From positions 1 through 64,000 of the forward strand of contig CANFYZ010000003.1 in NCBI GenBank assembly GCA_947451385.1: 64,000 bases of DNA, in the 5' to 3' direction. This DNA is from Comamonadaceae bacterium. GTDB lineage: Bacteria > Pseudomonadota > Gammaproteobacteria > Burkholderiales > Burkholderiaceae_C. The notes under the pieces are model-generated. The model did not search any database. It was not told where the DNA came from and was given only the letters and a program-made list of their open reading frames with translations. Position numbers and translations under genes: made by a program. Numbering within the stretch: position 1 is the first letter of the stretch; each line of letters opens with the position of its first letter. This document shows positions 47,033-64,000 of this stretch, piece after piece.

Positions 47033-47065
47033 TTTTTGAACTGGCACTGACACAGGGGGTATTGC

Positions 47066-47863: not shown

Positions 47864-47878
47864 GTCGCGGAGCGCCAT

Positions 47879-50697: not shown

Positions 50698-52272
50698 TCA
50701 AGCCGTGAAATGCGCCGCGTCCATGACGTGCAAGTCTTTGGCGATGCGTGGCGCAAAGTCCATCTGATCGAGTACGTCGCGCTGCAGGTCGATGCCGGGC
50801 GCGATTTCAAAGACTTCGATGCCCTCGGGCGTGAGCCTGAAACTCGCGCGCTCGGTCAGGTACAGCACTTCTTGCCCGCGCACTAGGCCTTGCGGGCCGG
50901 AGAAGGTGATCTGGTCTACGCGCTGCACCAGTTTTTTCACGCCGCCTTGCTGCAGCACGCGCATCTGTCCGTCACCGGTGAGCAGCTTCACGCCCTTGGC
51001 TGCGAGCGTGCCGCAGAACACCACTTTTTTCGCGTTCTGAGCGATGTCGATGAAGCCGCCAGGCCCCACCGTCACGCCGCCCAGGCGTGAGACGTTGACC
51101 GAGCCTTGCGCGTCAAATTCGCCAAAACCCAGAAAGGCGATGTCCAGACCGCCGCCGCCGTAAAAGTCGAACTGCGTGGCCGCGTCCAACATGGCGGTGG
51201 CGTTGCGGGCGTAGCCAAACAGCACGCCGTCCATCAGCGTGCCGCCATAGGTGCCGTGTTCAATGGTTTGGTAAATGCGGTGGTGTTCGTTGCGCGCGGC
51301 GATCAGTTTGGCGACCGCGTCGGGTACGCCCACGCCATAGTTGATGATGGGCCGTGCCTTGGCTGTGTTGAAAATCTCCACATAGGCGCGGCGTGCCACA
51401 GCCTGGCGTTCGCTGAAGGCTTCTTGTGATGCAGCCACCTCGCGTGCGTGGTCTTCGGCCTCGCTGTGTTGACGGGCCGCGCCAGTCAGCTCACCGCTGA
51501 AGGCTGGATCGAACGGGATGTCGTAACTGGTTTGCTGCGCGGCATCGACCACGATGGCATCGACCCAGGCCGCCGGAATGCGCACCTCGCGGGCCTTGAG
51601 CGCGCCTTCAGCCAGGCGCTCTTTGACCTGCACGATGACTTTGCCGCCGCTGTTCTTCGCGGCCAGGGCCAGCGATTGCGCGTCCAGGTTGGCGGCTTCG
51701 TGCTCGAAGCTGATGTTGCCGTCTTCGTCCGCAGCGCTGGCCCGCACGATGGCCACGTGGATGGGGAAGGGCTTGTAGCGCAGCCATTCGCGGCCATCGA
51801 TGGTGATGACTTCGGCCAGGTCGTCTTTGGCGGCATCGTTCATGCGGCCACCGCCAAAGCGCGGGTCGCACACCGTGCCCAGGCCCACATGGCTGATGAG
51901 TCCGGGTCGCCCCGCGCCGATCTCGCGCATCAGCTGGCTGCTGACACCGCCGGGCAGGATGTAGGCCTCGATCTTGTTGGCCAACGCCAGTTGCTGCAAG
52001 GCGGGCGACCAGACCCAATGCCCGCCGATCACCCGCTGCACCATGCCTTCGTGGGCAAAACAGTTCACGCCTTTGGTTTTTTTATCGCCAATGCCCAGGG
52101 CGTGCATCAGCGTCAGTTGGCGCGGATGCTGGGTTTGAAGAAAGCGTGCTTGCACCGCCTCGAACAGGTGCGTGGCTTCCATCAGGCCGCCGCCGCCGCC
52201 CATCAGGCCCACGGTGTGGCCGTCTTGGATCAGTTGCGCCGCCTCGGCCGCCGTCATGAATTTGGATGGCAT
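50698..52272 (-). CDS. Acyl-CoA:carboxylate CoA-transferase (propionate CoA-transferase/YdiF-like)
   Basis: This is a 524-residue fused-subunit family I CoA-transferase. The N-terminal half has GHTVGLMGGGGGLMEA and the C-terminal half IINYGVGVPDAVAKLI and the catalytic-Glu loop IYQTIEHGTYGG. It transfers CoA between short-chain or organic acids, here probably to activate the acid handled by the neighbouring dehydrogenase. The ATG at 52272 has GAGG five bases upstream; a GTG at 52278 is possible. It is 7 bp behind the acyl-CoA dehydrogenase gene and last of the run. Confidence 0.9.
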   Translation of the reverse strand: MPSKFMTAAEAAQLIQDGHTVGLMGGGGGLMEATHLFEAVQARFLQTQHPRQLTLMHALGIGDKKTKGVNCFAHEGMVQRVIGGHWVWSPALQQLALANKIEAYILPGGVSSQLMREIGAGRPGLISHVGLGTVCDPRFGGGRMNDAAKDDLAEVITIDGREWLRYKPFPIHVAIVRASAADEDGNISFEHEAANLDAQSLALAAKNSGGKVIVQVKERLAEGALKAREVRIPAAWVDAIVVDAAQQTSYDIPFDPAFSGELTGAARQHSEAEDHAREVAASQEAFSERQAVARRAYVEIFNTAKARPIINYGVGVPDAVAKLIAARNEHHRIYQTIEHGTYGGTLMDGVLFGYARNATAMLDAATQFDFYGGGGLDIAFLGFGEFDAQGSVNVSRLGGVTVGPGGFIDIAQNAKKVVFCGTLAAKGVKLLTGDGQMRVLQQGGVKKLVQRVDQITFSGPQGLVRGQEVLYLTERASFRLTPEGIEVFEIAPGIDLQRDVLDQMDFAPRIAKDLHVMDAAHFTA

Positions 52273-52279
52273 GCGCACC

Positions 52280-53440
52280 TCAGCGATTCACATCAAACAA
52301 AGCCGCAACTTTTTTCAAGGTGCTCTTGGCGATCACGCCACGGTGAATTTCGCTGGTGCCGTCATAGATGCGGTAAATGCGCGCATCTCGGTAATAGCGC
52401 TCGATCGACAATTCTTTGCAAAAACCCATACCGCCAAACACCTGCACCGCGCGGTCCACCACGCGGCCCAACATTTCAGCGGCATGCACTTTCACCATCG
52501 CGATCTGTTCGCGCGCGTCCAGGCCTTGGTCCAGCATCCAAGCGGCGTGGTAGACCATCCAGCGCGCGGCGTTGATCTCGATCACGCTGTCGGCGATCAT
52601 TTGCTGCACCATCTGGAAGTCGCCGATTTTGGTGTTGAACTGTTTGCGCTCGTTGGCCCAGTTCACCATCATTTCGCAGACATGGCTGGCCTTGCCCACC
52701 GCGCGCGCGCCCACCTGGGCCAGACGCACCACATTCAGCGCGCCCATGGCCAGTTTGAAGCCCTGGCCGACTTCGCCGAGCAGGGCCGCGTCTTCGAGTT
52801 GCACATTGTCAAAGAACAGTTCCAGGTGCGGCGTGCCGCGCAGGCCCATCATTTTTTGGTCCTTGCCGAGGGTGAAACCGGCCAGCCCTTTGTCGACCAT
52901 GAACATGCTGATTTCTTTCTCGCCCGTTTTGGCCGACACCAAAAAGAAATCGCTCCACTCGCCGTCGCTGATGAAATGCTTGCCGCCGTTCAGCACCCAG
53001 CCCTTGTCGTTCTTCACGGCGTGGGTTTTGATGCCGGCCGCGTCCGAGCCCGCACCGGGCTCGGTGATGGTGATGGCGCAGGTGCGCGTGCCTTCGACCG
53101 AGGGCTTGAGCCAACGGTCAATTTGTGCGCCCTTGCAGTGCAGCAGCGGCTCGTACACATTGCCAAAGGCGCGGCGGATGATGATGTCGCTGGTGTGGCC
53201 GAACTGTTCTTCGCACAGAATGCGGTCCAGGTTGGACAGGCCGCCGCCACCGAGTTCTGCCGGCATGTTCATGCCGTACAAACCCAGGGCCTTGGCTTTG
53301 GCGTGCAAGGCCTGGGCTTTGGCGTTGTCAAACACGCCGGTGTGTTCGATTTCGTCTTCCAGCGGTTGGCATTCTTCGGCGATGAAACGGCGCACCGTGT
53401 CGATCAGCATTCTTTGTTCGTCGTTCAGTGCAAAGTCCAT
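52280..53440 (-). CDS. Acyl-CoA dehydrogenase with Asp at the usual catalytic Glu position
   Basis: This is a 386-residue acyl-CoA dehydrogenase. ITITEPGAGSDAAGIKT and WVLNGGKHFISDGEWSDF bind flavin, and VQVFGGMGFCKELSIERYYRDAR is a standard C-terminal region. The MCAD-type catalytic segment reads IYRIYDGTSEIHR, with Asp where most members have Glu (YEGT). No LPYER-type alternative Glu is evident. Either Asp serves as base or the substrate differs. Gaps to the TIM-barrel gene (9 bp) and CoA-transferase gene (7 bp) indicate an operon. Confidence 0.92.
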   Translation of the reverse strand: MDFALNDEQRMLIDTVRRFIAEECQPLEDEIEHTGVFDNAKAQALHAKAKALGLYGMNMPAELGGGGLSNLDRILCEEQFGHTSDIIIRRAFGNVYEPLLHCKGAQIDRWLKPSVEGTRTCAITITEPGAGSDAAGIKTHAVKNDKGWVLNGGKHFISDGEWSDFFLVSAKTGEKEISMFMVDKGLAGFTLGKDQKMMGLRGTPHLELFFDNVQLEDAALLGEVGQGFKLAMGALNVVRLAQVGARAVGKASHVCEMMVNWANERKQFNTKIGDFQMVQQMIADSVIEINAARWMVYHAAWMLDQGLDAREQIAMVKVHAAEMLGRVVDRAVQVFGGMGFCKELSIERYYRDARIYRIYDGTSEIHRGVIAKSTLKKVAALFDVNR

Positions 53441-53449
53441 GGTGTGCTC

Positions 53450-54256
53450 TCAGTCGGTAAAAGGTCGGCTGGCCGCCAGGCATTCGGCGGCCCATTCGGT
53501 GGGCGGGGTGTGGGCTTCACGCGCAAAATTCACCACCTCGACGCTGACCGGCAAGTCGGCAGGCAAGGCAGCAAACAGGCCGCGCACATCGATGCTGCCG
53601 TCACCCGGCAACAAGCGCTCGCAGCGCGCGGTGTGGATCATTTGCGCGGAGCTGAAATGCAAGCCCGCCTCGGCGTCGCAGATTTGCGCGTAATGCAAAA
53701 GCTGGCGGGGGATGGCGCGGATATCGTCCAGCGTGGTGGTGGAGCGGCCAAAGTGCAGCGCATCGACCAAGATGCCTGCATTGCTGGGCATGCCCGCGCC
53801 TTGCACGATGCGCAGCGCGGCTTGGGCGTCTTTCACTTCGGTCCAGGGCATGAACTCCAGGTCGGCCGTCATGCCATAGGGCTGCATCACCTCGCACAGG
53901 CGGGCGTAGTTGGCCGTCAGTCGTGCTTCATCGGGGTCATCGCCCGCAACCAAGATGGCCTTGGCTTGGAGCTGTGCGCCCACGTCATACAGCGCGTCCC
54001 AGGTGTGCGGGTCGAAGTCGGCGTTGATGCGGATGATTTCTAAATCGAAGACACCCACACCGGTGTCACGCTGTGCGGCCAGCGTCTCGCGCAGCGCTTG
54101 AGGCTGGTCCAGCAGATGTTGCTGCGGCGCGCCCGGCGCGTTGGGCCACAGCCGCAGGCCCACGAACGGGTAGCCCGTTTGCGCCGCGATGCGAAGCGTC
54201 TCGACCGGAGTGCAGCGGTGCGAGCTCAGGTAGGCGAGGGAATATAGGCGGGTCAT
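53450..54256 (-). CDS. Xylose-isomerase-like TIM-barrel protein (possible 3-dehydroshikimate dehydratase)
   Basis: This is a 268-residue AP-endonuclease-2/xylose-isomerase-like TIM barrel. A Glu-Asp-Gln-Glu set suited to one divalent metal is visible: Glu134 (DLEFMPW), Asp165 (GILVDALHFGRS), Gln191 (YAQICDAEAG) and Glu240 (VSVEVVNF). The same quartet occurs in sugar epimerases and in QuiC/AsbF-type 3-dehydroshikimate dehydratases. His168 in DALHF is also in a likely catalytic spot. With an AroE-like dehydrogenase in the same cluster, dehydration of a dehydroshikimate-like compound is attractive, but plain epimerase/isomerase remains possible. Confidence 0.78.
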   Translation of the reverse strand: MTRLYSLAYLSSHRCTPVETLRIAAQTGYPFVGLRLWPNAPGAPQQHLLDQPQALRETLAAQRDTGVGVFDLEIIRINADFDPHTWDALYDVGAQLQAKAILVAGDDPDEARLTANYARLCEVMQPYGMTADLEFMPWTEVKDAQAALRIVQGAGMPSNAGILVDALHFGRSTTTLDDIRAIPRQLLHYAQICDAEAGLHFSSAQMIHTARCERLLPGDGSIDVRGLFAALPADLPVSVEVVNFAREAHTPPTEWAAECLAASRPFTD

Positions 54257-54261
54257 TCTTG

Positions 54262-54340
54262 TCCTCCGCCGGGCCGCCCCAAGGAGGGCAAGGCCCCCTC
54301 GGGGGGCAGTGAGTACACGCAGTGACGAACGTGGGGGCTC
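54262..54340. repeat. GC-rich intergenic palindromic repeat
   Basis: The gap between the NIPSNAP and TIM-barrel genes is filled by a GC-rich element containing GCCCCC-TCG-GGGGGC (54293-54307) and a GGGCCGCCCCAAGGAGGGCA arm. Sequences of this form recur between genes in comamonad genomes as I recall; no second copy was noticed in this window. It may split the minus-strand run into two transcription units. Confidence 0.55.
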
Positions 54341-54343
54341 ATT

Positions 54344-54970
54344 TCACTTCAGAGGTGATACAGCGGTGGGCAGGGCGATGGTCGAGACCATGTTCGTGGT
54401 CAGGTAGGCCGGGCCGCCTTTGGGCGGCCAGATGCCTTGGGCCACGGCTTCGGCGCGGATCTGGCTGCGTGCGTTCAGGCTGTCGTAGGCCCAGATGTTG
54501 TTGAAACGCAGCGGACCGTCGAGTGCGACCATGGCCACCACGCAAGGCGAGAGCTTCTCGCGTGCGGGCACCGCCTCTGCCCACAAGTCGATGGTGGGCT
54601 GCACGCCCCCGGGTTGGATGCCATAGGTGCGGATTTCATACACCGGGCCGTGGATGCCGGACTCGCTGCTCGGGCGCAACGGTTTCATCCAGTCAAAACC
54701 TTGGTAACTGTGCTGCTCCAGGCTCTGAAAGATCGCACCACAGCCGAAGGGGTTGGCGTGTTTTTGTGTGCGATCGCGTTCGCTGCGCAGCGCCTCCAGC
54801 GTGGCAAAACCACGCAGCACGAGCATCTGGTTCAGCTGGCCGATGTCGGTGAACCAGCAGCCCAGCAACTCGCCTTGGGCATCCGGGTGGGTGCTGTAGG
54901 CCTGAATCTGGGTGGCCGCTTGCGCAGCGGTGCCGAAGGGCAGGGTCAGGGTGGCGAGTTCGTAATACAT
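54344..54970 (-). CDS. NIPSNAP-family protein
   Basis: This is a 208-residue protein of the NIPSNAP/ferredoxin-like alpha-beta barrel family, with two related halves (YYELATLTLPFG at the start; PVYEIRTYGIQPGGVQPTIDLW after residue 105). NIPSNAP proteins have no settled function; small homologues often accompany catabolic enzymes as dimeric alpha-beta barrel enzymes or binding proteins. Starts at 54982 and 54988 are possible, but 54970 gives the typical M-YYELATL. It is 24 nt behind the flavoprotein gene. Confidence 0.82.
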   Translation of the reverse strand: MYYELATLTLPFGTAAQAATQIQAYSTHPDAQGELLGCWFTDIGQLNQMLVLRGFATLEALRSERDRTQKHANPFGCGAIFQSLEQHSYQGFDWMKPLRPSSESGIHGPVYEIRTYGIQPGGVQPTIDLWAEAVPAREKLSPCVVAMVALDGPLRFNNIWAYDSLNARSQIRAEAVAQGIWPPKGGPAYLTTNMVSTIALPTAVSPLK

Positions 54971-54994
54971 GGTGTTCTGCATTCCCAAAAAAGA

Positions 54995-56824
54995 TCAGTT
55001 CAAAGGGCTGTGCGCGGGGTCGGCATCAGCCATGTGGTGTGCGGCAATAAATCCAAAGGTCATGGCCGGCCCCAGGGTGATGCCGCCCGCAGGGTAGTGC
55101 CCCCCCATCACGCTGTTCATGTCGTTGCCGCCCGCGTACAGGCCCGGTATGGCTTGGCCACGGGCATCCAACACCTGTGCGTGTTCGTTGGTGCGCAGGC
55201 CCGCAAAGGTGCCCAGGCTGCCCATGACGATCTTCACCGCGTAAAACGGGCCCCGCTCGATCGGGCCCATGCACGGGTTGGTCAGGCCCCGCGAGGCGGC
55301 GCGTATGGCGTCGCCCTGGATGCGGTTGTAGGCGGTCTCGCCCCGGCCAAAATCTTTGTCTTTGCCGTCCAGGGCCAGGCGGTTGTAGCGGGTCAAGGTG
55401 GCTTGCAGACCGGCGGCGTCGATGCCGCAGGCCGCCGCCAATTCGGCCAGCGTGTGGCCGCGTTTCAGGTAGCCCTTGGCGAGCCAAGGGGCGAGGGGCA
55501 TGGGCGCGGGTTTCACGGCACCCAGACCGTAATAGCGGATGAAGTCGTGGTCACACAGCAACCAAGCTTCGGGCGTTTCGCCAGCAGGCGTGGCCGCCAG
55601 CAGGCCTTGCATCATGTCGTGGTAAGCGTTGGCCTCGTTGGTGAAGCGCAGGCCGTGGCGGTTCACCGCGATCAAGCCGGGCTTGGCGCGCTCGATCAAA
55701 TGCGGAAAGTGCATCGGCTCCCCTGCAGGTGCACCGCCGTCTTTGCGCATCTTGCTGCGCGGCACCAGCGAGACCGGGGCCAGCGCCGCGGCCTGCAACA
55801 GATCGCGGGCCACTTGCCCGCCCACGCTCTCGCCCAGGCGCAGGCCGTCGCCGGTGTTGCCTCGGCTACCGGCCGACCAGTGTTCGTGGCCGGTGGGCGC
55901 ATGCGGCAGCAACGCGCGTTTGCGCGCAGCATCGTGCGGAAAACCGCCACACGCCAGCAAGACGCCTTTGCGCGCATGCACCTGCACTGCGCCTTGGGGC
56001 GTGTGCAACTCAGCGCCCAGCACGCGTCCGTCCTCGCCGCCCTCGGCCTGGAGCAAGCGCTGGGCTGGGCTGCTGAGCCAGATCTCGCCGCCTTGGTCCC
56101 ACAGCGACCGCGCCAGCCCTGCAACCAGTGCGTTGCCGTTGACCAGTTGCGTGCCGCGGTGGTGCCGCAGCAGATCGCGCCCGTGGCGCAGCAGTTTTTG
56201 GGTCACGTACCAGAACGAGGCGCGCTGGTGCAATGCGTTGAAAAAATGGCGCATCTCCGCGCCCGCAGCGATGCCCATGCCCCACAACGTGGTCTCGTGC
56301 AGCGGCGGCTTGAGGTCGTGCAAGCGCGCGCCCAAGCGGTGGCCGTCAAAGGGCGCAGCACACACCGAGCGACCGCCGCTGGCGGCATCGGGCGTGTGGC
56401 CGTGAAAGTCGGGAATGGCATTGCCGTCGATGAACTGCAACGCCGTGCGGCGGCGAAAGAATTCGACCATGCGCGGGCCGTGTTCCAAAAAAGCGCGGGC
56501 ACGGGGTTCGTCAAAGCGTTCACCCAATTCGTGGCGCAGGTAGGACAGCGGTTGCGCGATGTCTTCGTGAAGGCCCGCCTCCACCGCCAGCGGATTGCGC
56601 GGCACCCACATCCAGCCGCCAGACCAGGCGGTGGTGCCGCCGTAGTGCGGGTCTTTTTCGGCGACGATGACTTTCAGGCCCAGGTGCGCGGCGGTGACCG
56701 CCGCCGACAAGCCGCCCGCGCCCGAGCCAATGACCAGCAGGTCGCAGTCGATGCATGCGGAAGAGGGCGAGGGCGGGGGCAAGGTCGAGGACGGGGACGG
56801 GGACGCGTGGGCCATGGCGGGCAT
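54995..56824 (-). CDS. FAD-dependent oxidoreductase, 3-ketosteroid-Delta1-dehydrogenase-like (copy 1)
   Basis: This is a 609-residue flavoprotein of the fumarate reductase/KstD superfamily. The FAD loop is VIGSGAGGLSAAV (near residue 31), with EKDPHYGGTTAWSGGWMWVP next. The C-terminal stretch GGNDMNSVMGG-HYPAGGITLGP keeps the Tyr-x3-Gly pair that in KstD polarises the 3-keto group. It starts with a low-complexity Ser/Pro tail (56760-56812), and Met4 is an alternative start. It is probably cotranscribed with the IclR gene (17 bp upstream) and NIPSNAP. It is paralogous to the flavoprotein at 59648. Confidence 0.88.
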   Translation of the reverse strand: MPAMAHASPSPSSTLPPPSPSSACIDCDLLVIGSGAGGLSAAVTAAHLGLKVIVAEKDPHYGGTTAWSGGWMWVPRNPLAVEAGLHEDIAQPLSYLRHELGERFDEPRARAFLEHGPRMVEFFRRRTALQFIDGNAIPDFHGHTPDAASGGRSVCAAPFDGHRLGARLHDLKPPLHETTLWGMGIAAGAEMRHFFNALHQRASFWYVTQKLLRHGRDLLRHHRGTQLVNGNALVAGLARSLWDQGGEIWLSSPAQRLLQAEGGEDGRVLGAELHTPQGAVQVHARKGVLLACGGFPHDAARKRALLPHAPTGHEHWSAGSRGNTGDGLRLGESVGGQVARDLLQAAALAPVSLVPRSKMRKDGGAPAGEPMHFPHLIERAKPGLIAVNRHGLRFTNEANAYHDMMQGLLAATPAGETPEAWLLCDHDFIRYYGLGAVKPAPMPLAPWLAKGYLKRGHTLAELAAACGIDAAGLQATLTRYNRLALDGKDKDFGRGETAYNRIQGDAIRAASRGLTNPCMGPIERGPFYAVKIVMGSLGTFAGLRTNEHAQVLDARGQAIPGLYAGGNDMNSVMGGHYPAGGITLGPAMTFGFIAAHHMADADPAHSPLN

Positions 56825-56841
56825 AAAAAGAAGGCGAGCGT

Positions 56842-57675
56842 TCAGACCGCGTAAATCGGTTTGCGTTCGTTTGCGTCAGCGGCACTGCCGGTTTCGGCGG
56901 TGAGCTGAAAGAAGGGCGAAGCCCCGCTGGCCGCGGCCAGTTGCTGCGCGGTGTGCATCAACTCGGTGGCCAAGGCGTCCATTTTTTCAGGCGTGAAGCG
57001 CACCGTGGGGCCGGCAATCGTCAGCACCCCAAACGCGGGTTGCCCCGCAAAACGCACGGGCGCAGACATCGCACTCAGGCCAATGCTGTAGGTGTCGGTG
57101 GTCACGCTGTAGCCGCGGGCGCGGCTCGTTTGCACCGCCTCGAGCACAGCTTGCAGGCTGGTCGGGGCGGCGGGGCCAAAGTCTTCGGGCCGTCCCAGAC
57201 CTTGTTTGGCCACGCGGGCCAGGGCCTCGTCGTCGCTCAAAGTAGACAGCAGAGCCCAGCCGGAAGACGAGCACGACAGCTGTGCGTCGCTGCCCATGTC
57301 GGGGTCATAGCGCAGGCCTTGCCGAGCGCCTTGGGCGCGGGCCACCCAGGTCAAACGCTCACCGTCAACCACCGACAGGCGGACCAGTTCGCCAGACACC
57401 TCGGCCAGCCGGTTCAGCAGGGGCTGGGCGATGTCCACAATGCCCGAGTTGCTGAGGTAGGACAGGCCCATGGCCACCAACTTGGTGGTGAGCAGGTAGT
57501 CGCCGTGGCCGCGGGCCTGACGCACATAGCCCAAGCGCACCAGGTCGTTCAGCAAGCGGTGCGTGCCGCTGCGGGGGATGTCGAGCCGGTCGGCAATGGC
57601 ACCCAGCTCCAGGCCCTCGCCGTGTTGCGACAGCAGTTCGAGAATGCTCAGGGTTCGTTCGAGGACACCGCTCAT
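56842..57675 (-). CDS. IclR-family transcriptional regulator
   Basis: This is a 277-residue regulator. An N-terminal winged HTH (VLERTLSILELLSQHGEGLELGAIADRLDI...SGTHRLLNDLVRLGYV) is followed by the IclR effector domain (VSGELVRLSVVDGERLTWVAR, GVLTIAGPTVRFT). The ATG at 57675 overlaps the Gfo/Idh stop by 4 nt; the open frame upstream is antisense-type extension and rejected. It probably senses the substrate of the surrounding cluster and acts at the palindrome at 58806. Confidence 0.93.
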   Translation of the reverse strand: MSGVLERTLSILELLSQHGEGLELGAIADRLDIPRSGTHRLLNDLVRLGYVRQARGHGDYLLTTKLVAMGLSYLSNSGIVDIAQPLLNRLAEVSGELVRLSVVDGERLTWVARAQGARQGLRYDPDMGSDAQLSCSSSGWALLSTLSDDEALARVAKQGLGRPEDFGPAAPTSLQAVLEAVQTSRARGYSVTTDTYSIGLSAMSAPVRFAGQPAFGVLTIAGPTVRFTPEKMDALATELMHTAQQLAAASGASPFFQLTAETGSAADANERKPIYAV

Positions 57676-58733
57676 GTGTGTTTCCCAGATGCCGAGAAGG
57701 TCGGACAGGTTTGACGCTGCCCCGACCGTGCCGCTTGCAGCCAGGCTTGCGTGGCCTGCAAGGTGCGCCAGCCGTCCAGGGCCGAGCAGATCGGTGTTTC
57801 GCGCCGCTCGGCCACCGCACGGAAGTGCCTGAGTTGTTGGACATACACGTCGATCTCGTGCAGGTTGCTTTGTTCGCGGGTCAATGCGTGGTGCCAATGG
57901 CGCTCGCCTGGGTAATGCCACAGCGCCAGATCGGGCAGCGACAGTGCGCCTTGCGTGCCCGATAAAAAGTGCGACTGCACGTTTTGGCGCGGGTACTGGC
58001 TTTGCTCGCCGGCACACAGGTCCCAGCACCAGGGTGACACGGCGGTGTCGGACACCGTCATCACCGCTTGCGTGCCGCAGGCAAATTCAAACAGGGCGCT
58101 GGCCGTGTCTTCGACTTCAAAACCCCTTACCGCGTTGGACTGGCTGCCTTGCACCGCGCGCACGTCGCCCAGCAGGTAGACCAGCATGTCGATGTCATGG
58201 ATCAGGTTGATCAGCACCGGACCGCCTCCCACCTGGCGGCGCCAGGCCACATCGAAGTAGGCGTCGGGTTTGTAGAAATTGGCCATCACGTTGGCACTGA
58301 CCACCTGGCCCAGCCTACCCTCCTCCACGATCTGGCGGGCCTTTTGCAAGATCGGGTTTTGGCGGCGGTGGTGGCCCACCAGCACTGGCACGCCGGTGTC
58401 TTTTTCCAGCTGGATCAGGCGTTCAGCAGCGGCCAGTGTGTCGGTCACCGGCTTTTCGATCAGCACGGCCAGGCCACTTGCCATGCAATCGGCCGCCACC
58501 GCCACATGCGTTGCGTTGGGCGTGGCGATCACTACGCCTTGGGGCCGGGTGGCCGCCAGCAGCGCGGCATGGTTTTCAAAGGTGGGGATGTGCCGTTCTG
58601 CGCACCACTGGCGACCCACATCGCCCGGCTCGGCCACGCCCACCAGAGCGAACTCGGGGGTTTTCAGGATGCGCTCGATGTGGGCCCGACCCATCACGCC
58701 AGCGCCAATCACGGCCAGAGGGAACTTGTGCAT
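57672..58733 (-). CDS. Gfo/Idh/MocA-family oxidoreductase
   Basis: This is a 353-residue NAD(P)-dependent dehydrogenase of the sugar/cyclitol type. The Rossmann motif AVIGAGVMGRAH, the diagnostic VLIEKPVTD (EKP lysine) and GGGPVLINLIHDIDML with the catalytic Asp/His region are present. Substrates in this family are sugars, inositols or other polyhydroxylated rings, which fits an alicyclic catabolic role. It is first of the minus-strand run, divergent from the AroE-like gene. Confidence 0.92.
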   Translation of the reverse strand: MHKFPLAVIGAGVMGRAHIERILKTPEFALVGVAEPGDVGRQWCAERHIPTFENHAALLAATRPQGVVIATPNATHVAVAADCMASGLAVLIEKPVTDTLAAAERLIQLEKDTGVPVLVGHHRRQNPILQKARQIVEEGRLGQVVSANVMANFYKPDAYFDVAWRRQVGGGPVLINLIHDIDMLVYLLGDVRAVQGSQSNAVRGFEVEDTASALFEFACGTQAVMTVSDTAVSPWCWDLCAGEQSQYPRQNVQSHFLSGTQGALSLPDLALWHYPGERHWHHALTREQSNLHEIDVYVQQLRHFRAVAERRETPICSALDGWRTLQATQAWLQAARSGQRQTCPTFSASGKHT

Positions 58734-58805
58734 GGGTGTTTTTAGCTGTGCTGTGTTTGCGTCAATGGCGCGAGTATATTGATTTTTGGAAATAAATTCA
58801 AATAT

Positions 58806-58818
58806 GGAATCTAATTCC
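58806..58818. promoter_or_regulatory. Palindrome GGAAT-N3-ATTCC, candidate IclR operator
   Basis: This 13-bp perfect palindrome lies in the AT-rich divergent region (58734-58839) between the Gfo/Idh and AroE-like genes. It resembles the TGGAAATNATTTCCA form recognised by E. coli IclR. A second, imperfect TTTGGAA...ATTCAAA sits about 20 bp to the left (58784-58802). Confidence 0.6.
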
Positions 58819-58839
58819 GTTTTTATGTATCATCACGGC

Positions 58840-59646
58840 ATGAACCCGACCCAGCCTTTGAACCTTGACGGCGCTTCGCGTGTCCATTTCATCGTGGGCG
58901 ACCCGATTGCCCAGGTCAAATCCCCCACCGGCGTGAGCCAGGCTTTTCAAGACGCGGGGCTGAACGCGGTGTGCATTCCGGCGCATGTGGCGCCCGCCGA
59001 TTTGGCGGCCTGGACCGCCGGCGTGTCGCGCTGCCAAAACGTGGACGGCATCATCGTCACCGTGCCGCACAAGTTCGCCTACTTTGATTTGTGCGCCACC
59101 ACCTCGGAGCGGGGCGCGTTTTTGAAGTCCATCAACACATTGCGCCGCAACCCCGATGGCAGCTGGCACGGCGACATGTTCGACGGCCAGGCTTATGTCC
59201 AAGCCCTGGCCCTCAAAGGCTGTCATCTGGCCGACAAACAAGCCCTGTTGGTGGGAGCGGGCGGGGCCGGTTCGGCCATTGCCTATGCCTTGGTCACGGG
59301 CGGCGTGCGCGAGTTGGCGATCCACGACCCCGACACGCTGCGACGCGACAGCCTGGTGCAACGCCTGGCGGCCCTGGGCAGGTGCACGGTGCGCGTGGGC
59401 AGCAGCGACCCGACGGGCTTTGACATCGTCATCAACGCCACCCCGGTCGGCATGAAAGCGGGTGATCCGCATCCGATCGATGCAACCAAATTCACGCCGG
59501 CCATGTTCATTGGCTGTGTGATCACGGCCCCGGCGGTGCCGCCCATGGTGGCAGCCGCCCGCGCGGCCGGCTGCCACACCCTGACCGGGACCGAGATGTT
59601 TGCGCAGGTGAAAGACCTGATGGTCGCGTTTTTGAGGGGGGCATGA
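58840..59646 (+). CDS. AroE-like (shikimate/quinate dehydrogenase family) protein, altered substrate site
   Basis: This is a 268-residue member of the shikimate dehydrogenase family. The catalytic Lys78 (VTVPHKF) and Asp115 (GDMFDG) are kept, and the cofactor loop is GAGGAGSAI. The substrate serine pair differs: GDPIAQVKSP has Val26 in place of the first Ser of the canonical SKS, and the loop MFDG replaces NTD. The cofactor-specificity stretch (IHDPDTLRRDS) has an acid where NADP enzymes prefer basic residues, suggesting NAD and a catabolic direction. The ATG at 58840 is likely; 58825 is possible. A flavoprotein gene follows after 1 nt. Confidence 0.87.
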   Translation: MNPTQPLNLDGASRVHFIVGDPIAQVKSPTGVSQAFQDAGLNAVCIPAHVAPADLAAWTAGVSRCQNVDGIIVTVPHKFAYFDLCATTSERGAFLKSINTLRRNPDGSWHGDMFDGQAYVQALALKGCHLADKQALLVGAGGAGSAIAYALVTGGVRELAIHDPDTLRRDSLVQRLAALGRCTVRVGSSDPTGFDIVINATPVGMKAGDPHPIDATKFTPAMFIGCVITAPAVPPMVAAARAAGCHTLTGTEMFAQVKDLMVAFLRGA

Positions 59647-59647
59647 C

Positions 59648-61399
59648 ATGCAGGTGCTGAAGCAAGGCCTGGTGGGTCTCCAAGACGGCGCGGAATTTGA
59701 TCTGGTGGTGGTTGGCGCGGGCGGCGCTGGCCTGTCGGCGGCGGTGTATGCCGCCATCGACGGGGCCAAGGTGCTGGTGGTGGAGCACACCGAATTCGTG
59801 GGAGGCACCACCGCCTGGTCGGCCGGGACCACCTGGGTACCGGGCACGCACCACAGCCGCATGGTCAACACCAGCGACACCTTGGCCAACGCCGCCACCT
59901 ACCTGGACCACGCCGTGGGCACGCAAGCGCCGGCCGCTTTGCGCGAGGCGTTTTTGCAGCACGGGGCTGCTGCGGTGGCGAAGATCGAAGCCCACTCGTC
60001 CATGCAGTACCGCGCCTATCCCAAACACCCGGACTACATCAGCGATTTGCCTGGCTCTACCCTGTGTGGCCGGGCGCTGGAGCCGGTGCCTTTTGATGGG
60101 CGTTTGCTGGGCGACTTGTTTTCTCTGTTGCGCCCGCCCATCCCCGAATTCACCGTGCTCGGCGGCATGATGGTGGACCGCACCGACATCAACCATTTGC
60201 TGGCCATGACGCAGTCATGGGCCTCCTGCAAGCATGCGCTGCGCATTCTGTTGCGCCATCTGCGCGATCGCCTCAGCCATGCCCGCGGCACGCGCTTGGT
60301 GATGGGCAATGCCTTGGCCGGTCGCTTGCTGCATTCCTTGGCGTCACACGCAAAGGCCACCTTGGCGCTGAACACCTCGGTGGAAGACTTGGAGCGCGAT
60401 GCCAGTGGCCGCGTGGTGGCGCTGCGTTTGCGCAGCGGCAGTGCGGTCTGCCGCGTGCTTGCGCGCCAAGGCGTGGTGTTGGCCAGTGGCGGTTTCAACC
60501 GCGATCTGGCACTGCGCAGCACGCGCCTGCCGGGTATTCCTGCGGAATGGTGCCCCGCTGCGCCCGGCCAAACGGGCGAGGCCCTGGCCCTGGCCCGGGG
60601 TCTGGGCGCGGTCGAGGGCCAGGGCGCGCAAAGTCCGGCGTTCTGGGCCCCGGTCTCGCTGCGTCGGCGCGCCGACGGCAGCACCGCCGTCTTTCCCCAC
60701 TTTGTCATGGACCGCGCCAAGCCCGGCATGATCACCGTCAACCAGGCCGGTGCACGCTTTGTGAATGAAAGCACCTCCTACCATTTGTTTGCTTTGGGCA
60801 TGCAGGCGGCGCAAGCGGTGCCGGCTTATTTGATCGCCGATGCCCAGGCCCTGCGCCGCTACGGCATGGGCATGGTGCGCCCGGGTGGCAAAGGTTTGGC
60901 CCCGTTTTTGGCCGACGGCTATTTGACCGAAGCCCCGAGCTTGGTCGCCTTGGCCCAACAACTCGGCATCTCTGCCGAAGGCTTGACCGCATCGGTGGCG
61001 AACAACAATGCCTTTGCGGAGACCGGCTTGGACACGCAGTTCCAGCGCGGCGTCACCGCGTACCAGCACAACATTGGCGATGCCACCGCCGGTGGCCCGA
61101 ACCCGAATTGGGGTGCCATGACCGAAGCCCCTTTCTATGCCGTCAAGCTCTACCCCGGCGACATCGGTGCCGCGCAAGGGCTGCAGACCAATGCACAGGC
61201 CCAGGTGTTGAACGCGCAAGGCCACGTGATTCCAGGCTTGTACGCGGTGGGCAACGACATGAACTCGATCATGGGCGGGGTGTACCCGGCCCCGGGCATC
61301 ACCATTGGCCCCGGTTTGGTGTTTGCCTACTTGGCCACGCAACATGCTTTGGGGCAAGGCCCGAGTCCCCTCGGGTCAAACCCTGAAAACGTTCAATGA
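59648..61399 (+). CDS. FAD-dependent oxidoreductase, 3-ketosteroid-Delta1-dehydrogenase-like (copy 2)
   Basis: This is a 583-residue flavoprotein paralogous to that at 54995. The FAD loop is VVGAGGAGLSAAVY near residue 21, followed by GGTTAWSAGTTWVPG. The C-terminal GNDMNSIMGGVYPAPGITIGP again has Tyr-x3-Gly as in KstD. It follows the AroE-like gene by one nucleotide (TGA C ATG), so they are coupled: an alcohol dehydrogenase making a ring ketone and a flavin enzyme that could desaturate next to it is a sensible pair. The substrate is unknown. Confidence 0.88.
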   Translation: MQVLKQGLVGLQDGAEFDLVVVGAGGAGLSAAVYAAIDGAKVLVVEHTEFVGGTTAWSAGTTWVPGTHHSRMVNTSDTLANAATYLDHAVGTQAPAALREAFLQHGAAAVAKIEAHSSMQYRAYPKHPDYISDLPGSTLCGRALEPVPFDGRLLGDLFSLLRPPIPEFTVLGGMMVDRTDINHLLAMTQSWASCKHALRILLRHLRDRLSHARGTRLVMGNALAGRLLHSLASHAKATLALNTSVEDLERDASGRVVALRLRSGSAVCRVLARQGVVLASGGFNRDLALRSTRLPGIPAEWCPAAPGQTGEALALARGLGAVEGQGAQSPAFWAPVSLRRRADGSTAVFPHFVMDRAKPGMITVNQAGARFVNESTSYHLFALGMQAAQAVPAYLIADAQALRRYGMGMVRPGGKGLAPFLADGYLTEAPSLVALAQQLGISAEGLTASVANNNAFAETGLDTQFQRGVTAYQHNIGDATAGGPNPNWGAMTEAPFYAVKLYPGDIGAAQGLQTNAQAQVLNAQGHVIPGLYAVGNDMNSIMGGVYPAPGITIGPGLVFAYLATQHALGQGPSPLGSNPENVQ

Positions 61400-61552: not shown

Positions 61553-62683
61553 GTGAAAGCTACCCTGAAAACCCTGGCTGTCTGCGCTGCTTTGGCAGTG
61601 TCCGGCTTGACGCAAGCCCAAGACATCAAAATCGCCAACATTGTTGAATTGTCTGGCCCCGGCACCACCGCGGGCACCTTGTTTAAAAACGGTGTCGAAA
61701 TGGCCATCAAGGAAATCAACGCCTCGGGCGGGATCTTGGGCAAGAAAATCAGCTACACCACCGAAGACACACAAACCAACCCCGGTGTGGCCAAGGGCTT
61801 GACTCAAAAAGCGGTGGACAACGACGTGTTCGCCATTTTTGGCCCCGTGTACTCCGGCTCCATCATGGTTTCCATGGCTGAATCCAAGCGCGGCGAAACG
61901 CCTAACTTCACCGGCGGTGAAGCCGCTGCCATCACCGCCCAGGGCAATCCTTATGTGTTCCGCACCGCCTTCGGTCAGAGCATTTCTTTCCCTAAGCTGG
62001 CCAAGTTCATCAACTCCAAGGCCAAGACTTTGGCCATCGTCTATGTGAACAACGACTTCGGTAAAGGCGGTCGTGACACCTTGACCAAATTGCTCGAAGG
62101 CACTTCGACCAAAGTTGTGGCTGACATTTCTACCGATGCCGGTCAGGTCGACTTCTCGGCGGCTGTGCTCAAAGCCAAGCAAACCGATGCCGACGCCATC
62201 TTTGTCTACACCAACGAAGAAGAGTCTGCGCGTGCATTGCGTGAGTTCCGCAAGCAGGGCGTGAAGAAAATGCTGATCGGCGAAACCACGTTGACCGGCC
62301 AAAAAGTGATCGAGTTGGCAGGTGAATCCGCCAACGGCGCCTTGGCCCACGTGGGCTTGACTGTGGACGCCCCTCAGTTCAAGGCCTTTGGTGACAAGTA
62401 CAAGGCCGAATACAAGTCCGAGTCGGATCACAACGGCATCAAGGGCTATACCGGCATGTACGTTCTGAAAGCCGCGATTGAAAAGGTCGGCAAACTGGAC
62501 CGCAAGGCCGTGGCGGCCGCGATCCGCGGTGGTTGCTTCAACACCAAGCAAACCCCCGGCATCTTGATGGACGTGTGCTTTGATGACAAAGGCGACTTGG
62601 ACCGCGAAAGCTTCTTGGTGGAAGTGAAAAACGGCCACCCTGTGATCAACGCCACCTTGCCAGCGTTGAACGCACGGAAGTAA
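61553..62683 (+). CDS. ABC transporter substrate-binding protein, branched-chain amino acid (Liv/HAAT) type
   Basis: This is a 376-residue periplasmic receptor. A signal peptide (TLKTLAVCAALAVSGLTQAQ) is followed by DIKIANIVELSGPGTTAGTLFKNGVEMAIKEIN, the type I fold used by LivJ and by receptors for aromatic acids. GSIMVSMAESKRGETPNFTGGEAAA and YVNNDFGKGG are typical. The GTG at 61553 follows GAGGAGACCTCT. The two permease genes come after a terminator-like hairpin. The neighbouring catabolic genes suggest the ligand may be an aromatic or alicyclic acid rather than an amino acid. Confidence 0.92.
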   Translation: MKATLKTLAVCAALAVSGLTQAQDIKIANIVELSGPGTTAGTLFKNGVEMAIKEINASGGILGKKISYTTEDTQTNPGVAKGLTQKAVDNDVFAIFGPVYSGSIMVSMAESKRGETPNFTGGEAAAITAQGNPYVFRTAFGQSISFPKLAKFINSKAKTLAIVYVNNDFGKGGRDTLTKLLEGTSTKVVADISTDAGQVDFSAAVLKAKQTDADAIFVYTNEEESARALREFRKQGVKKMLIGETTLTGQKVIELAGESANGALAHVGLTVDAPQFKAFGDKYKAEYKSESDHNGIKGYTGMYVLKAAIEKVGKLDRKAVAAAIRGGCFNTKQTPGILMDVCFDDKGDLDRESFLVEVKNGHPVINATLPALNARK

Positions 62684-62700
62684 GTTTTGCGTTCAAACGG

Positions 62701-62730
62701 GGCGGACTCCATTGGGGTCCGCCTTTTTTT
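62701..62730 (+). terminator. Terminator-like hairpin between binding protein and permease
   Basis: GGCGGACTCC-ATTG-GGGTCCGCC is followed by seven T residues, 17 nt after the receptor stop. It should end many transcripts and let fewer reach livH, giving receptor excess. Confidence 0.88.
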
Positions 62731-62804
62731 AGGCCAAGCAGGTTGAACAGCCTGCGCAAGCAGGCCGCACCCCTGCTTGCACATCCTGTACTCGGAGCTC
62801 ACCC

Positions 62805-63680
62805 ATGACCGACTTTCTTCAACTCTTTTTCAGTGGCCTGGCCACGGGCAGCATTTATGCCCTGGTCGCCCTGGGGTTCACGTTGCTGTGGCAGGCCTCG
62901 GGCACCATCAATTTCGCGCAGGGCGAATTTGTCATGCTGCCGGCCTTCATGATGGTGATGCTGCTGGGCTCAGGCCTGTCGCTGTATTTTGCTTTTGCTT
63001 TGACGATTGTTTTGTCGGTGGTGATTTTGGGCTGGTTGTTCAAGCGCGGCCTGGTGGACCCCTTGTTCAAGTTCGGCATGATGCCGATCGTGGTGGCCAC
63101 CATCGGCCTGTCGATCGCCATGCGCAATGGCGTGCGCGCAGGCTACAGCGCCGAGCCCCAACCGTTCCCCCAAGTCTTTCCCGATGTGATTTTGGAACTG
63201 GCTGGCGTGACCTTCTCGGTCAGCGATGTGGGCACCTTTGTTTTTGCCATGGTGCTGGTCATGGCCACACAGTCTTTTTTGAGCAAGACCGTCACCGGCC
63301 GCGCCATGCAAGCGGTGGCCCAGAACACCGAGAGCGCCTCGGTGCTGGGCATCAATGTGCCGCGCATGATTTTCTACACCTTCGCCATCAACGCGATTTT
63401 GGCGGCGGCAGCGGCTTTGCTGGTCACGCCCACCTACCTGGCCAAGTTCGACATGGGCGAGGGCCTGGGCAACAAGGCTTTCTTTGCGGCCATCATCGGC
63501 GGCTTCAACAACTCGCGTGGCGCCTTGCTGGGCGGTTTGCTGGTGGGCGTGTGTGAAAACCTGGCCGCCGCCTACATCTCGCCGGCCTACAAAGACGCGG
63601 TGGCCTTGATCATTTTCATGGTGGTGATCTTGTTCAAGCCGCAAGGTTTGCTCGGCAAAAAAGAGGAGCGCAAAGTATGA
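62805..63680 (+). CDS. livH: Branched-chain amino acid-type ABC transporter permease (LivH)
   Basis: This is a 291-residue inner-membrane permease with the LivH hallmarks SGLATGSIYALVALGFTLLW, INFAQGEFVMLPAFM and the cytoplasmic coupling region VTGRAMQAVAQNTESASVLGIN. About eight hydrophobic segments are present. The ATG at 62805 gives the usual MTDFLQLFFSG start. Its stop overlaps the LivM start by 4 nt. Confidence 0.95.
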   Translation: MTDFLQLFFSGLATGSIYALVALGFTLLWQASGTINFAQGEFVMLPAFMMVMLLGSGLSLYFAFALTIVLSVVILGWLFKRGLVDPLFKFGMMPIVVATIGLSIAMRNGVRAGYSAEPQPFPQVFPDVILELAGVTFSVSDVGTFVFAMVLVMATQSFLSKTVTGRAMQAVAQNTESASVLGINVPRMIFYTFAINAILAAAAALLVTPTYLAKFDMGEGLGNKAFFAAIIGGFNNSRGALLGGLLVGVCENLAAAYISPAYKDAVALIIFMVVILFKPQGLLGKKEERKV

Positions 63681-64000
63681 AGAAGCTCAATCTGCTGCTG
63701 GCGATGGTCGCCCTGGCCGCGCTGGTCATCGTGCCCAATTACCTGAAGAACTATGGCATCCACATGTTCACCACCTGGCTGGTGTTCATCATCGCCACCA
63801 TGGGCCTGAATTTGACGGTGGGTTACGCCGGGCAAAAGTCGCTCGGTCACGCCGCCTTCTTTGGCATCGGGGCCTACACCGTGGCGATTCTGCTCAAAGC
63901 CGGTTTCAGTTTCTGGCTGGGCTTGCCGGTGGCGGCCTTGATTTGTTTTGTCACCGGGCTGGCGCTGGGTTTCCCAGCGCTGCGCGTGCAGACCATTTAC
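63677..64000 (+). CDS. livM: Branched-chain amino acid-type ABC transporter permease (LivM), 3' end beyond window
   Basis: The start of the second permease, 108 codons visible and open to the window edge. The N-terminus KKLNLLLAMVALAALVIVPN is followed by MGLNLTVGYAGQKSLGHAAF, the conserved LivM motif (normally GYAGQ-SLGHAAF). The ATG overlaps the livH stop (ATGA), with GAGGAGC upstream. ATPase genes livG/livF would be expected next, outside the window. Confidence 0.95.
   Translation, partial: MKKLNLLLAMVALAALVIVPNYLKNYGIHMFTTWLVFIIATMGLNLTVGYAGQKSLGHAAFFGIGAYTVAILLKAGFSFWLGLPVAALICFVTGLALGFPALRVQTIY

Follow-up and report, generated by a model that had tools for sequence, protein, structure and literature searches.

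What does the cluster of nine genes at 50698-61399 do for the freshwater bacterium that carries it? The genes lie in a stretch of 64,000 nucleotides, the whole of which was analysed and is called the window here. An earlier note had read them as a catabolic island for a hydroxylated alicyclic acid, with flavoproteins that desaturate the ring next to a ketone. All nine genes are present, with the same families and with coordinates that match this first description to within a few bases. The reading that we favour, with a probability of roughly 0.6, is that the island encodes a peripheral catabolic pathway to protocatechuate, whose starting compound would be a hydroxylated cyclohexanecarboxylic acid at a lower oxidation level than shikimate. 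No described pathway with this gene set was found.

Organization and conservation of the cluster

The leftward operon (minus strand) encodes, in order of increasing coordinate, a fused class I CoA-transferase (CoAT), an acyl-CoA dehydrogenase (ACAD), a metal-dependent TIM-barrel protein, a NIPSNAP protein, a flavoprotein (FADa), an IclR-family regulator (56842-57675; PF01614 and PF09339) and a Gfo/Idh/MocA dehydrogenase, with gaps of 1, 9, 87, 12, 17 and -4 bases between the genes. The rightward operon (plus strand) encodes an AroE-like dehydrogenase and, after 1 base, a second flavoprotein (FADb), and is followed by a Liv-type ABC importer; the flanking contig sequence shows that the island runs on past the end of the window. 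The measured gaps agree with the tight spacing described in the earlier note.

The Gfo/Idh and AroE-like genes diverge from a gap of 106 bases, where the earlier note had described a promoter with a palindrome. The putative operator/promoter (58773-58818) comprises a perfect 5+3+5 palindrome (GGAATCTAATTCC, 58806-58818), a single sigma-70-like site for the leftward operon (-35/-10 at 58801-58773; mean of 0.2 in shuffles) and a second box (58779-58801) that is imperfect here but is a perfect palindrome in loci L062 and L065. In 45 of 80 relatives the core of the palindrome, GAATNNNATTC, is present upstream of the AroE-like gene (mean of 0.47 and maximum of 3 in 300 first-order Markov replicates); as the relatives are not independent, this count is a measure of conservation and carries no p-value. 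The IclR protein probably governs both operons via the divergent palindrome.

Synteny was assessed in 80 orthologous loci, 43 of which are flanked on each side by 8.4 kb or more. Within these 43 well flanked loci the TIM barrel is found in 41, the IclR regulator in 40, FADb in 37, FADa in 36 and the NIPSNAP protein in 34, whereas FADa, FADb and NIPSNAP each have no match in the 22 control loci, which surround other genes of the AroE family. The seven plasmid loci examined, from alpha- and beta-proteobacteria, carry the same gene set. Both the genes themselves and their strong conservation as a cluster are confirmed; the lack of co-occurrence in other genomes that would have spoken against the earlier reading is not what we observe. 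Across all 80 loci the IclR regulator is present in 72 and the NIPSNAP protein in 57, while the Gfo/Idh dehydrogenase (29 loci) is an optional part and CoAT (28) and ACAD (30, one a weak 35% match) form a separable branch. Counting against the favoured reading, AroE-like orthologues without either flavoprotein close by were seen in L046 and L048 (of eight loci examined) and in L108 (of the 43).

Enzymes of the core and of the CoA branch

The AroE-like protein (58840-59646, with an ORF also readable from 58786; PF08501, 49.5 bits) scores 114.5 bits against TIGR00507, under the cut-off of 200.2. Lys78 and Asp115, which we take to correspond to the catalytic pair of shikimate dehydrogenase (AroE), are present in all 92 sequences of the subfamily. 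Position 257 is Val in 91 of the 92 and Leu in one; the same position in the second AroE of the genome (AroE2) is Gln in seven of eight sequences and a gap in one, and this Gln near the C-terminus is presumably a substrate-contacting residue. The enzyme belongs to a subfamily of its own, in which a substrate-binding position is changed, and is a proposed ring-hydroxyl dehydrogenase. Members of the subfamily are annotated as shikimate dehydrogenase or ThiF.

FADa (54995-56824; PF00890, 319 bits) and FADb (59648-61399; PF00890, 259 bits) are FAD_binding_2 proteins and predicted desaturases of the type of KstD/AcmB, the 3-ketosteroid delta-1-dehydrogenase. They pass the cut-offs of PRK06134 (FADa, 853.6 bits; cut-off 747) and PRK12843 (FADb, 837.7 bits; cut-off 758), respectively. 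We take Tyr119, Tyr318, Tyr487 and Gly491 to be the catalytic residues of KstD, with a Tyr/Gly pair binding the ketone; the register assumes that the chain numbering is the native numbering plus 20. Equivalents of Tyr318, Tyr487 and Gly491 are found in 49, 47 and 48 of 49 FADa sequences and in 69, 68 and 68 of 69 FADb sequences. The Tyr119 position, in contrast, is His in 47 of the 49 FADa sequences and Ile, Leu or Met in 67 of the 69 FADb sequences. By alignment, both proteins therefore keep three of the four catalytic residues and are probable ketone-dehydrogenating enzymes, in a gene context that is not steroidal.

The TIM barrel (AP_endonuc_2; 53450-54256; PF01261, 49.4 bits) is the proposed dehydratase. 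Profile searches match it to QuiC1 (5hmq; E = 1.2e-9) and, profile to profile, to 12 QuiC-type domains with probabilities of 99.3-99.7. Ten active-site residues of QuiC1/QsuB are listed in PMC7442255. Seven of these are kept (R64 as R76, E134, D165, H168, Q191, R210 as R214 and E239 as E240), each at least 97% conserved among 63 sequences; the R64-R76 register runs through the genome's own split QuiC, as the 5hmq alignment starts after R64. The other three are replaced (Leu97 by Ala98, Leu136 by Met136 and Ser206 by Ala210), and the split QuiC also has Ala at the Ser206 position. The active site thus appears to be partly QuiC-like. The NCBIfam QuiC model, which describes a two-domain protein (cut-off 1200), gives 24.9 bits for this single domain. 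The predicted structure (pLDDT 97.3) has Lmo2234 and IolI as best folds, followed by 5hmq; E134, D165, H168, R214 and E240 also have counterparts in IolI, where Gln191 is His. Given these nearest folds, the residues common to IolI and the three lost QuiC1 residues, the protein may instead be an isomerase.

CoAT (50698-52278; PF01144, 74.6 bits) and ACAD (52280-53440; PF00441/PF02770/PF02771) make up the CoA branch. CoAT scores 349 bits against the Staph_FadX model (cut-off 750), and ACAD is below the cut-offs of the acryloyl-CoA reductase model (280 bits) and the cyclohexane-1-carbonyl-CoA dehydrogenase equivalog (232 bits; cut-off 650). The AliA/AliB-type anaerobic cyclohexanecarboxyl-CoA route is similar in its CoA activation and related acyl-CoA dehydrogenase, but here there is a CoA-transferase rather than a ligase, ACAD lies far below 650 and an AroE/TIM-barrel pair stands alongside. 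Among the 43 loci, the FAD set occurs without a CoAT or ACAD match in 18, with both in 13 and with an ACAD match only in two. A further pattern, CoAT and ACAD present with FADa and NIPSNAP absent, is seen in six and suggests that the flavoproteins and the CoA branch are alternative desaturation routes. Against this, among the six CoA-type genomes, a 69% FADa copy interrupted by an internal stop is present in one, and paralogues at 48-55% in two.

Proposed pathway and competing explanations

The best reading of the substrate is a reduced relative of shikimate, for example dihydroshikimate or 3,4-dihydroxycyclohexanecarboxylate. The acid would be taken up by the Liv-type importer and its C3 hydroxyl oxidized to a ketone by the AroE-like enzyme with NAD(P), as the family and the catalytic residues suggest. 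The flavoproteins, from their residues, would then remove hydrogens from beside this ketone: one may set the C1=C2 double bond next to ketone and carboxylate, while the other may finish the aromatization or handle a different stereoisomer. The TIM barrel would act as a dehydratase where a spare hydroxyl is left, and CoAT and ACAD would offer a parallel route to C1=C2 on the CoA thioester, which the replacement pattern in part supports. By homology, protocatechuate would undergo 4,5-cleavage by LigAB. The redox count fits: after a single NAD(P) step, dihydroshikimate would need a desaturation and a dehydration to reach protocatechuate, and 3,4-dihydroxycyclohexanecarboxylate would have to be desaturated twice. 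Counting against the proposal, two flavoproteins and a dehydratase exceed the needs of any single substrate considered, and a second QuiC-type dehydratase looks redundant in a genome that already has one.

One of the closest known systems is quinate/shikimate catabolism (QuiA/QuiB/QuiC, QsuABCD); on this explanation the AroE-like protein would be another quinate/shikimate dehydrogenase, the TIM barrel another 3-dehydroshikimate dehydratase and the flavoproteins a side reaction. Common to both are an AroE-fold dehydrogenase, a metal TIM barrel (here with seven of the ten listed QuiC1 residues) and, with the LigAB-type neighbours, a probable protocatechuate end point. The same contig also holds a TRAP importer, AroE2 and the split QuiC approximately 7-13 kb downstream of FADb, the more ordinary AroE-QuiC set lying approximately 10-13 kb beyond it, and QuiC-type matches occur within approximately 10 kb of the cluster in five of the 43 loci, three at at least 80% identity. 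However, no KstD-type desaturase is needed to reach protocatechuate from quinate or shikimate, yet both flavoproteins are conserved, and the AroE subfamily falls below the shikimate dehydrogenase cut-off with Val in place of the AroE2 Gln. To our knowledge, neither two KstD-type flavoproteins, nor a NIPSNAP protein, nor a CoA branch is part of that pathway. Because the desaturases would be superfluous and a more ordinary set is at hand, plain shikimate or quinate is not favoured as the substrate, and we regard this explanation as unlikely; the earlier reading of a conserved catabolic island for a hydroaromatic acid, with two probable ketone-dehydrogenating flavoproteins, is supported.

The precedent given in the earlier note, a two-flavoprotein aromatization of 4-oxocyclohexanecarboxylate, is confirmed by the NCBIfam equivalogs ChcC1 (4-oxocyclohexanecarboxylate 2-dehydrogenase) and ChcC2 (4-oxocyclohex-2-ene-1-carboxylate 5-dehydrogenase) of the Sinomonas chc (Blakley) pathway. 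An analogue would desaturate 4-hydroxy- or 4-oxocyclohexanecarboxylate twice to 4-hydroxybenzoate, in line with the two KstD-type flavoproteins side by side, the ChcC2 scores of 476 (FADa) and 403 bits (FADb) and the cyclohexanecarboxylate aromatization via p-hydroxybenzoate named in PMC5906575. Both proteins are nevertheless far under the cut-offs of ChcC2 (900) and ChcC1 (305 and 279 bits; cut-off 1000), so that 4-oxocyclohexanecarboxylate is not a likely substrate. The QuiC-like TIM barrel would be left without a job, a 4-hydroxybenzoate hydroxylase or P450 was not noticed among the annotated cluster genes, and some relatives have LigAB-type neighbours; the chc pathway presumably also has its own dehydrogenase where this cluster has an AroE-type enzyme. 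Such an analogue is decidedly unlikely. Very unlikely, too, is a route from dihydroshikimate through the ketone and two desaturations, with no dehydration, to gallate: it fits two desaturases exactly, and the gallate dioxygenase model (cut-off 412) gives 284 bits for the LigB of L098 and 259 bits for that of L118, but it gives no role to the dehydratase-like TIM barrel, and the LigA and LigB of the genome itself and the Limnohabitans-type LigB fit protocatechuate-type models better. That the flavoproteins act on a steroid-like or terpenoid ketone beside incidental neighbours seems most improbable; the solved structures nearest to them in sequence are those of 3-oxosteroid 1-dehydrogenases, but Tyr119 is replaced in both, and they are repeatedly associated with the AroE-like enzyme and the QuiC-like TIM barrel and, in some relatives, with LigAB-type genes.

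For the favoured pathway to protocatechuate, the Lig proteins bear on the end point. LigB lies beside the cluster in six of the 80 loci: it is protocatechuate-type in L100, L106, L107 and L112 (LigK is also found by model in L100 and L112), whereas L098 and L118 carry a LigAB-type pair that is more distant. Against this evidence, four of the six loci are close relatives of one another, and LigB in the other two fits a family-level model only, passing the class III extradiol dioxygenase family cut-offs. The genome itself encodes LigA (TIGR02792, 238 bits; cut-off 108.6) and LigB (PRK13366, 542 bits when scanned without its first residues; cut-off 317). Together, the neighbouring LigAB-type genes and the protocatechuate-type LigAB of the genome indicate that the product is probably protocatechuate.

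More tentatively, and with some doubt, we suggest that a widespread undescribed aerobic pathway may re-aromatize the dihydroshikimate and 3,4-dihydroxycyclohexanecarboxylate left by fermenting bacteria. Desaturation would proceed in either of two interchangeable ways, driven by the ketone (KstD-type flavoproteins) or by CoA (acyl-CoA dehydrogenation), and both would meet at one AroE/TIM-barrel pair. If the proposed pathway is right, the commonly unassigned PRK06134/PRK12843 KstD-like flavoproteins, bacterial NIPSNAP proteins and this AroE subfamily would have a joint role, and a missing link of the carbon cycle would be supplied, by which reduced ring acids from plants are recovered aerobically in fresh water and soil. 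The enzymes may then aromatize hydroxylated cyclohexanecarboxylates, and nature would provide two ways to one double bond for comparison.

Importer and accessory proteins

The Liv-type importer (61553-64000, plus strand, continuing beyond the window) comprises a binding protein (61553-62683) and permeases (62805-63680 and from 63677). A LivK match is present in 31 of the 80 loci, 23 at at least 50% identity; the relatives of known structure closest to it are binding proteins of the Leu/Ile/Val type, which counts against the proposal. The Gfo/Idh/MocA dehydrogenase (57672-58733; PF01408 and PF22725) scores 119.5 bits against the IolG model, below the cut-off. The two-domain NIPSNAP protein (54344-54982; PF07978, 92.8 bits over two stretches) is without a step in the proposed pathway; in fold, its predicted structure (pLDDT 92.9) resembles proteins of the chlorite dismutase/coproheme decarboxylase type.

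Gene layout and occurrence in other genomes

The nine genes of the cluster lie at the positions, and belong to the families, that the earlier note had given. They form two divergent operons with short intergenic distances. The leftward operon runs in the order Gfo/Idh dehydrogenase, IclR regulator, FADa (a KstD-type flavoprotein; 54995-56824), NIPSNAP protein, TIM barrel (53450-54256), acyl-CoA dehydrogenase (52280-53440) and CoA-transferase (50698-52278), while the rightward operon carries the AroE-like gene (58840-59646) and the second flavoprotein, FADb (59648-61399), followed by the Liv-type importer. The 106-base divergent region holds the palindrome GGAATCTAATTCC (58806-58818), a second, imperfect box (58779-58801) and a sigma-70-like site (58801-58773). 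The core GAATNNNATTC is present upstream of AroE in 45 of the 80 related loci (the best 80 of 476 matches), compared with a mean of 0.47 in Markov replicates, and the GGAATNNNATTCC site is a candidate IclR target.

The contig measures 99.4 kb, of which the window is the first 64 kb, and the genome 3.1 Mb. The source organism is probably a Limnohabitans-type freshwater betaproteobacterium, because the best matches to the AroE-like protein (84-87% identity, among the best 80 of 476) are Limnohabitans records. The genes on the far side of the CoA-transferase (45761-50512: a LuxR regulator, an SDR and a second acyl-CoA dehydrogenase) were rejected as parts of the cluster; no match of more than 45% identity over 100 residues was found to them in 96 related records, which reach approximately 1-2 kb past the CoA-transferase. 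Of these, the LuxR regulator that adjoins the cluster (47879-50512) is large and of the MalT/LuxR type; with no match above 45% identity in the 96 records, it is probably outside the cluster.

An AroE-family match at 1e-20 is present in 38 of 300 Burkholderiales genomes, the source genome included, and reaches at least 52% identity in eight of these besides the source. Both FADa and FADb occur at five of the eight loci (L041, L042, L043, L045 and L047), L044 has FADb only (41% identity) and L046 and L048 have neither. A wider scan of named genomes used an alignment of 14 AroE-like proteins as the query, and the best 80 of 476 confirmed matches were kept; a gene was scored as present on a tblastn match over half of the query at 1e-8, so that some matches are weak. 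Among these 80 loci, many of which are cut by contig ends, matches were found to IclR at 72, FADb at 68, FADa at 63, the TIM barrel at 60, NIPSNAP at 57, the importer binding protein LivK at 31 (23 at 50% identity or more and eight below), the acyl-CoA dehydrogenase at 30, Gfo/Idh at 29 and the CoA-transferase at 28. The Gfo/Idh enzyme, present at only 29 of the 80, was therefore rejected as a core step and is an optional part.

Dropping the 37 loci that have a flank shorter than 8.4 kb leaves 43, in which the TIM barrel is present at 41, IclR at 40, FADb at 37, FADa at 36 and NIPSNAP at 34. In contrast, none of 22 control loci at other AroE-family genes of the same order has a match to FADa, FADb or NIPSNAP; one has a weak TIM-barrel match (38%) and two have Gfo/Idh matches. 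These controls were hand-picked mainly on flank length, cover 24 of the 42 other AroE-family places and omit three in or adjoining a locus with the conserved gene set (L047, L048 and the source contig). The co-occurrence across genomes by which the earlier note proposed to check the cluster is thus borne out. The same set is found at seven plasmid loci (Diaphorobacter, Rhizobium, Paracoccus and Paraburkholderia), hand-picked among the 25 listed of 398 records; one of them, L057, has the same matches without annotation.

The flavoproteins, the AroE-like enzyme and the TIM barrel

FADa scores over the cut-off of PRK06134 and FADb over that of PRK12843, families named only as FAD-dependent oxidoreductases. 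Their scores against the ChcC1 and ChcC2 models are far under the cut-offs, and membership of those families was rejected. By sequence, the nearest solved relatives of both are 3-oxosteroid 1-dehydrogenases; a role in steroid catabolism was rejected on gene context. Residues were placed with 4c3x as the guide, the chain numbering being taken as native plus 20, in alignments of 49 FADa and 69 FADb sequences (window included; sequences below 50% identity, out of the length range or containing stops were dropped). The equivalents of Tyr318, Tyr487 and Gly491 are retained in nearly all orthologues. At the position of Tyr119, 47 of the 49 FADa sequences have His, and 67 of the 69 FADb sequences have Ile, Leu or Met; in KstD all four are catalytic residues. 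Since the equivalents of the first three are retained, both flavoproteins should dehydrogenate beside a ketone, and judging by the alignments they are two fixed, distinct subfamilies.

The AroE-like enzyme was aligned in 92 sequences of at least 50% identity, with the same length and stop filters. Lys78 and Asp115 are present in all 92, and Val occupies in 91 the position at which the second AroE, AroE2, has Gln in seven of eight sequences. With this change and a score under the shikimate dehydrogenase cut-off, a plain shikimate dehydrogenase was rejected; the protein is probably an AroE-fold dehydrogenase with altered substrate recognition.

The TIM barrel could be either a dehydratase of the QuiC type or an isomerase. 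It scores only 24.9 bits against the QuiC model but can be aligned along its length to a profile built from 12 QuiC-type domains; a profile of 24 TIM-barrel sequences finds Lmo2234 (1.4e-17) ahead of the 3-dehydroshikimate dehydratase QuiC1 (5hmq; 1.2e-9) and IolI (6.3e-9), and the fold search with the predicted model ranks Lmo2234, IolI and QuiC1 in that order. The active-site residues common to QuiC1 and QsuB, as listed in PMC7442255, are Arg64, Leu97, Glu134, Leu136, Asp165, His168, Gln191, Ser206, Arg210 and Glu239. Seven of these ten have conserved counterparts (R76, E134, D165, H168, Q191, R214 and E240) among 63 sequences of at least 45% identity, filtered for length and stops as for the flavoproteins; the match of Arg64 to R76 runs via the organism's own split QuiC, as the 5hmq alignment starts after Arg64. 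The listed Leu97, Leu136 and Ser206 are replaced by Ala98, Met136 and Ala210. IolI shares the Glu, Asp and His positions as well as Arg214 and Glu240. Both the 5hmq and the profile-profile alignments pair Arg210 of QuiC1 with Arg214, a residue that IolI has too, which weakens the case for a dehydratase. Arg211, which neither IolI nor Lmo2234 has, aligns with a QuiC1 Arg outside the listed active site. The Gln191 position is His in IolI, and R76 is missing from Lmo2234 in the printed alignment. Because of Gln191, R76 and the gene context, the predicted dehydratase activity is favoured, with an isomerase possible.

The NIPSNAP protein is confidently modelled as a two-domain fold; a PDB sequence search gave only weak matches and the fold neighbours name no reaction. 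Similarly, the solved relatives of LivK by sequence name no ligand.

The CoA pair and the flavoprotein set

Of the 43 loci (drawn from the best 80 of 476), 18 carry the set of FADa, NIPSNAP, FADb and TIM barrel and have no match to the CoA-transferase or acyl-CoA dehydrogenase. At 13 others the set is accompanied by both CoA genes, and at two by an acyl-CoA dehydrogenase match alone (85% in L081 and 35% in L114). FADa and NIPSNAP are missing from six loci that have the CoA pair and the TIM barrel, and FADb too from four of these; the last four loci are mixed. The CoA branch stands alone most clearly in L129, L131, L126 and L093, which have the CoA pair, TIM barrel and AroE-like genes and, as far as each locus extends, match neither a flavoprotein nor NIPSNAP.

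Whole-genome checks covered the six CoA-type genomes and ten of the FAD-only genomes. Among the former, FADa relatives at 1e-40 are absent from one genome and limited to one of 39-42% in each of two; two more carry paralogues of 48-55% alongside weaker ones, and the sixth a 69% copy interrupted by an internal stop. This copy (G300:C12:11613-13355), with one in-frame TGA, may be decaying or reflect an assembly error. The CoA-transferase has no match in five of the ten FAD-only genomes, relatives of only 41-47% in four, and an 83% copy away from the locus in one. The pattern fits, short of proof, the two sets being alternative ways to the same job; the CoA pair could introduce the C1=C2 double bond into the thioester of a saturated acid. 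The acyl-CoA dehydrogenase has a conserved YDGTSE motif, with Asp360 kept in at least 97% of 29 sequences at the position of the catalytic Glu of most family members.

Proposed chemistry and fate of the product

To reach protocatechuate (C7H6O4), dihydroshikimate (C7H12O5) would have to be oxidised once in an NAD(P)-linked step, desaturated once and dehydrated once, and 3,4-dihydroxycyclohexanecarboxylate (C7H12O4) would have to be oxidised once in such a step and desaturated twice. From its gene content, the cluster appears to hold all of the activities for both routes. The co-occurrence of FADa, FADb and a dehydratase-like protein would be most simply explained if the cluster handles more than one substrate or stereoisomer. 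Both dihydroshikimate and 3,4-dihydroxycyclohexanecarboxylate arise when lactobacilli reduce quinate and shikimate, and would therefore be common in decaying plant matter.

On the source contig, FADb is followed by the remainder of the importer, regulators of the IclR and TetR families, a TRAP importer, AroE2 and genes for an HPPD-like protein and a TIM barrel. The genes from TetR onwards (L039:7071-14040) fall at approximately 67.1-74.0 kb of the contig, beyond the window; the TRAP importer starts approximately 7 kb and the QuiC half ends approximately 13 kb after FADb. The HPPD-like protein and downstream TIM barrel each match one half of QuiC (83 and 151 bits), so that the two domains of the usual fusion are here separate, adjacent genes. 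Four Limnohabitans-type loci (L100, L106, L107 and L112) carry LigB and a Gfo/Idh protein like LigC at a distance of 0.1 to 3.6 kb past FADb, with LigA and a LigI-like protein in three and LigK and a LigJ-like protein in two within reach of the locus. LigA, LigB and LigK were identified by models or by close matches to a model-tested protein, and LigC, LigI and LigJ were named by position and sequence. A more distant LigA-LigB pair, in which LigB fits a family-level model only, lies on the TIM-barrel side in L098 (Rhodoferax bucti) and L118. Away from the cluster, LigA, LigB and a LigC-like gene are also present in the source genome. The downstream split QuiC set, the lig genes by the cluster in relatives and the Lig genes of the source genome point to protocatechuate as the aromatic product. 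Overall, the conversion of a reduced hydroaromatic acid to protocatechuate is the best explanation of the cluster, with a probability of roughly 60%.

The enzyme kinds are already known, and the precedent of a two-flavoprotein aromatisation that the earlier note mentioned does exist, in the ChcC models. The gene set as a whole is absent from the open-licence literature searched, mostly titles and the starts of abstracts. There, no such pathway or gene set was found, including under cyclohexanecarboxylate, dihydroshikimate and hydroaromatic terms, and a match for NIPSNAP with shikimate dehydrogenase concerned antibiotic responses. Open-licence searches for at least three of five gene names together, and for quinate with Limnohabitans, found nothing. 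The set is likewise absent from passages of PMC5906575, PMC4213383, PMC7057948, PMC9324987 and PMC7442255.

Two further gene arrangements were observed at related loci. In L111 (509-1330) and L123 (525-1346), a gene for an amidohydrolase distantly like 4-sulfomuconolactone hydrolase (104.6 bits for L123, under the cut-off) separates an AroE-like fragment from the Liv importer genes, and the same amidohydrolase occurs in L125. A second, related set, with a further KstD-like flavoprotein, two SDR-type dehydrogenases and a regulator gene, lies near the conserved genes in Paracoccus sp. MA (L054:23840-36789) and Rhizobium sp. ACO-34A (L055:20079-25020), and in Paracoccus also includes an annotated NIPSNAP protein and a QuiC-type fusion. 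This second set may serve a different hydroaromatic acid.
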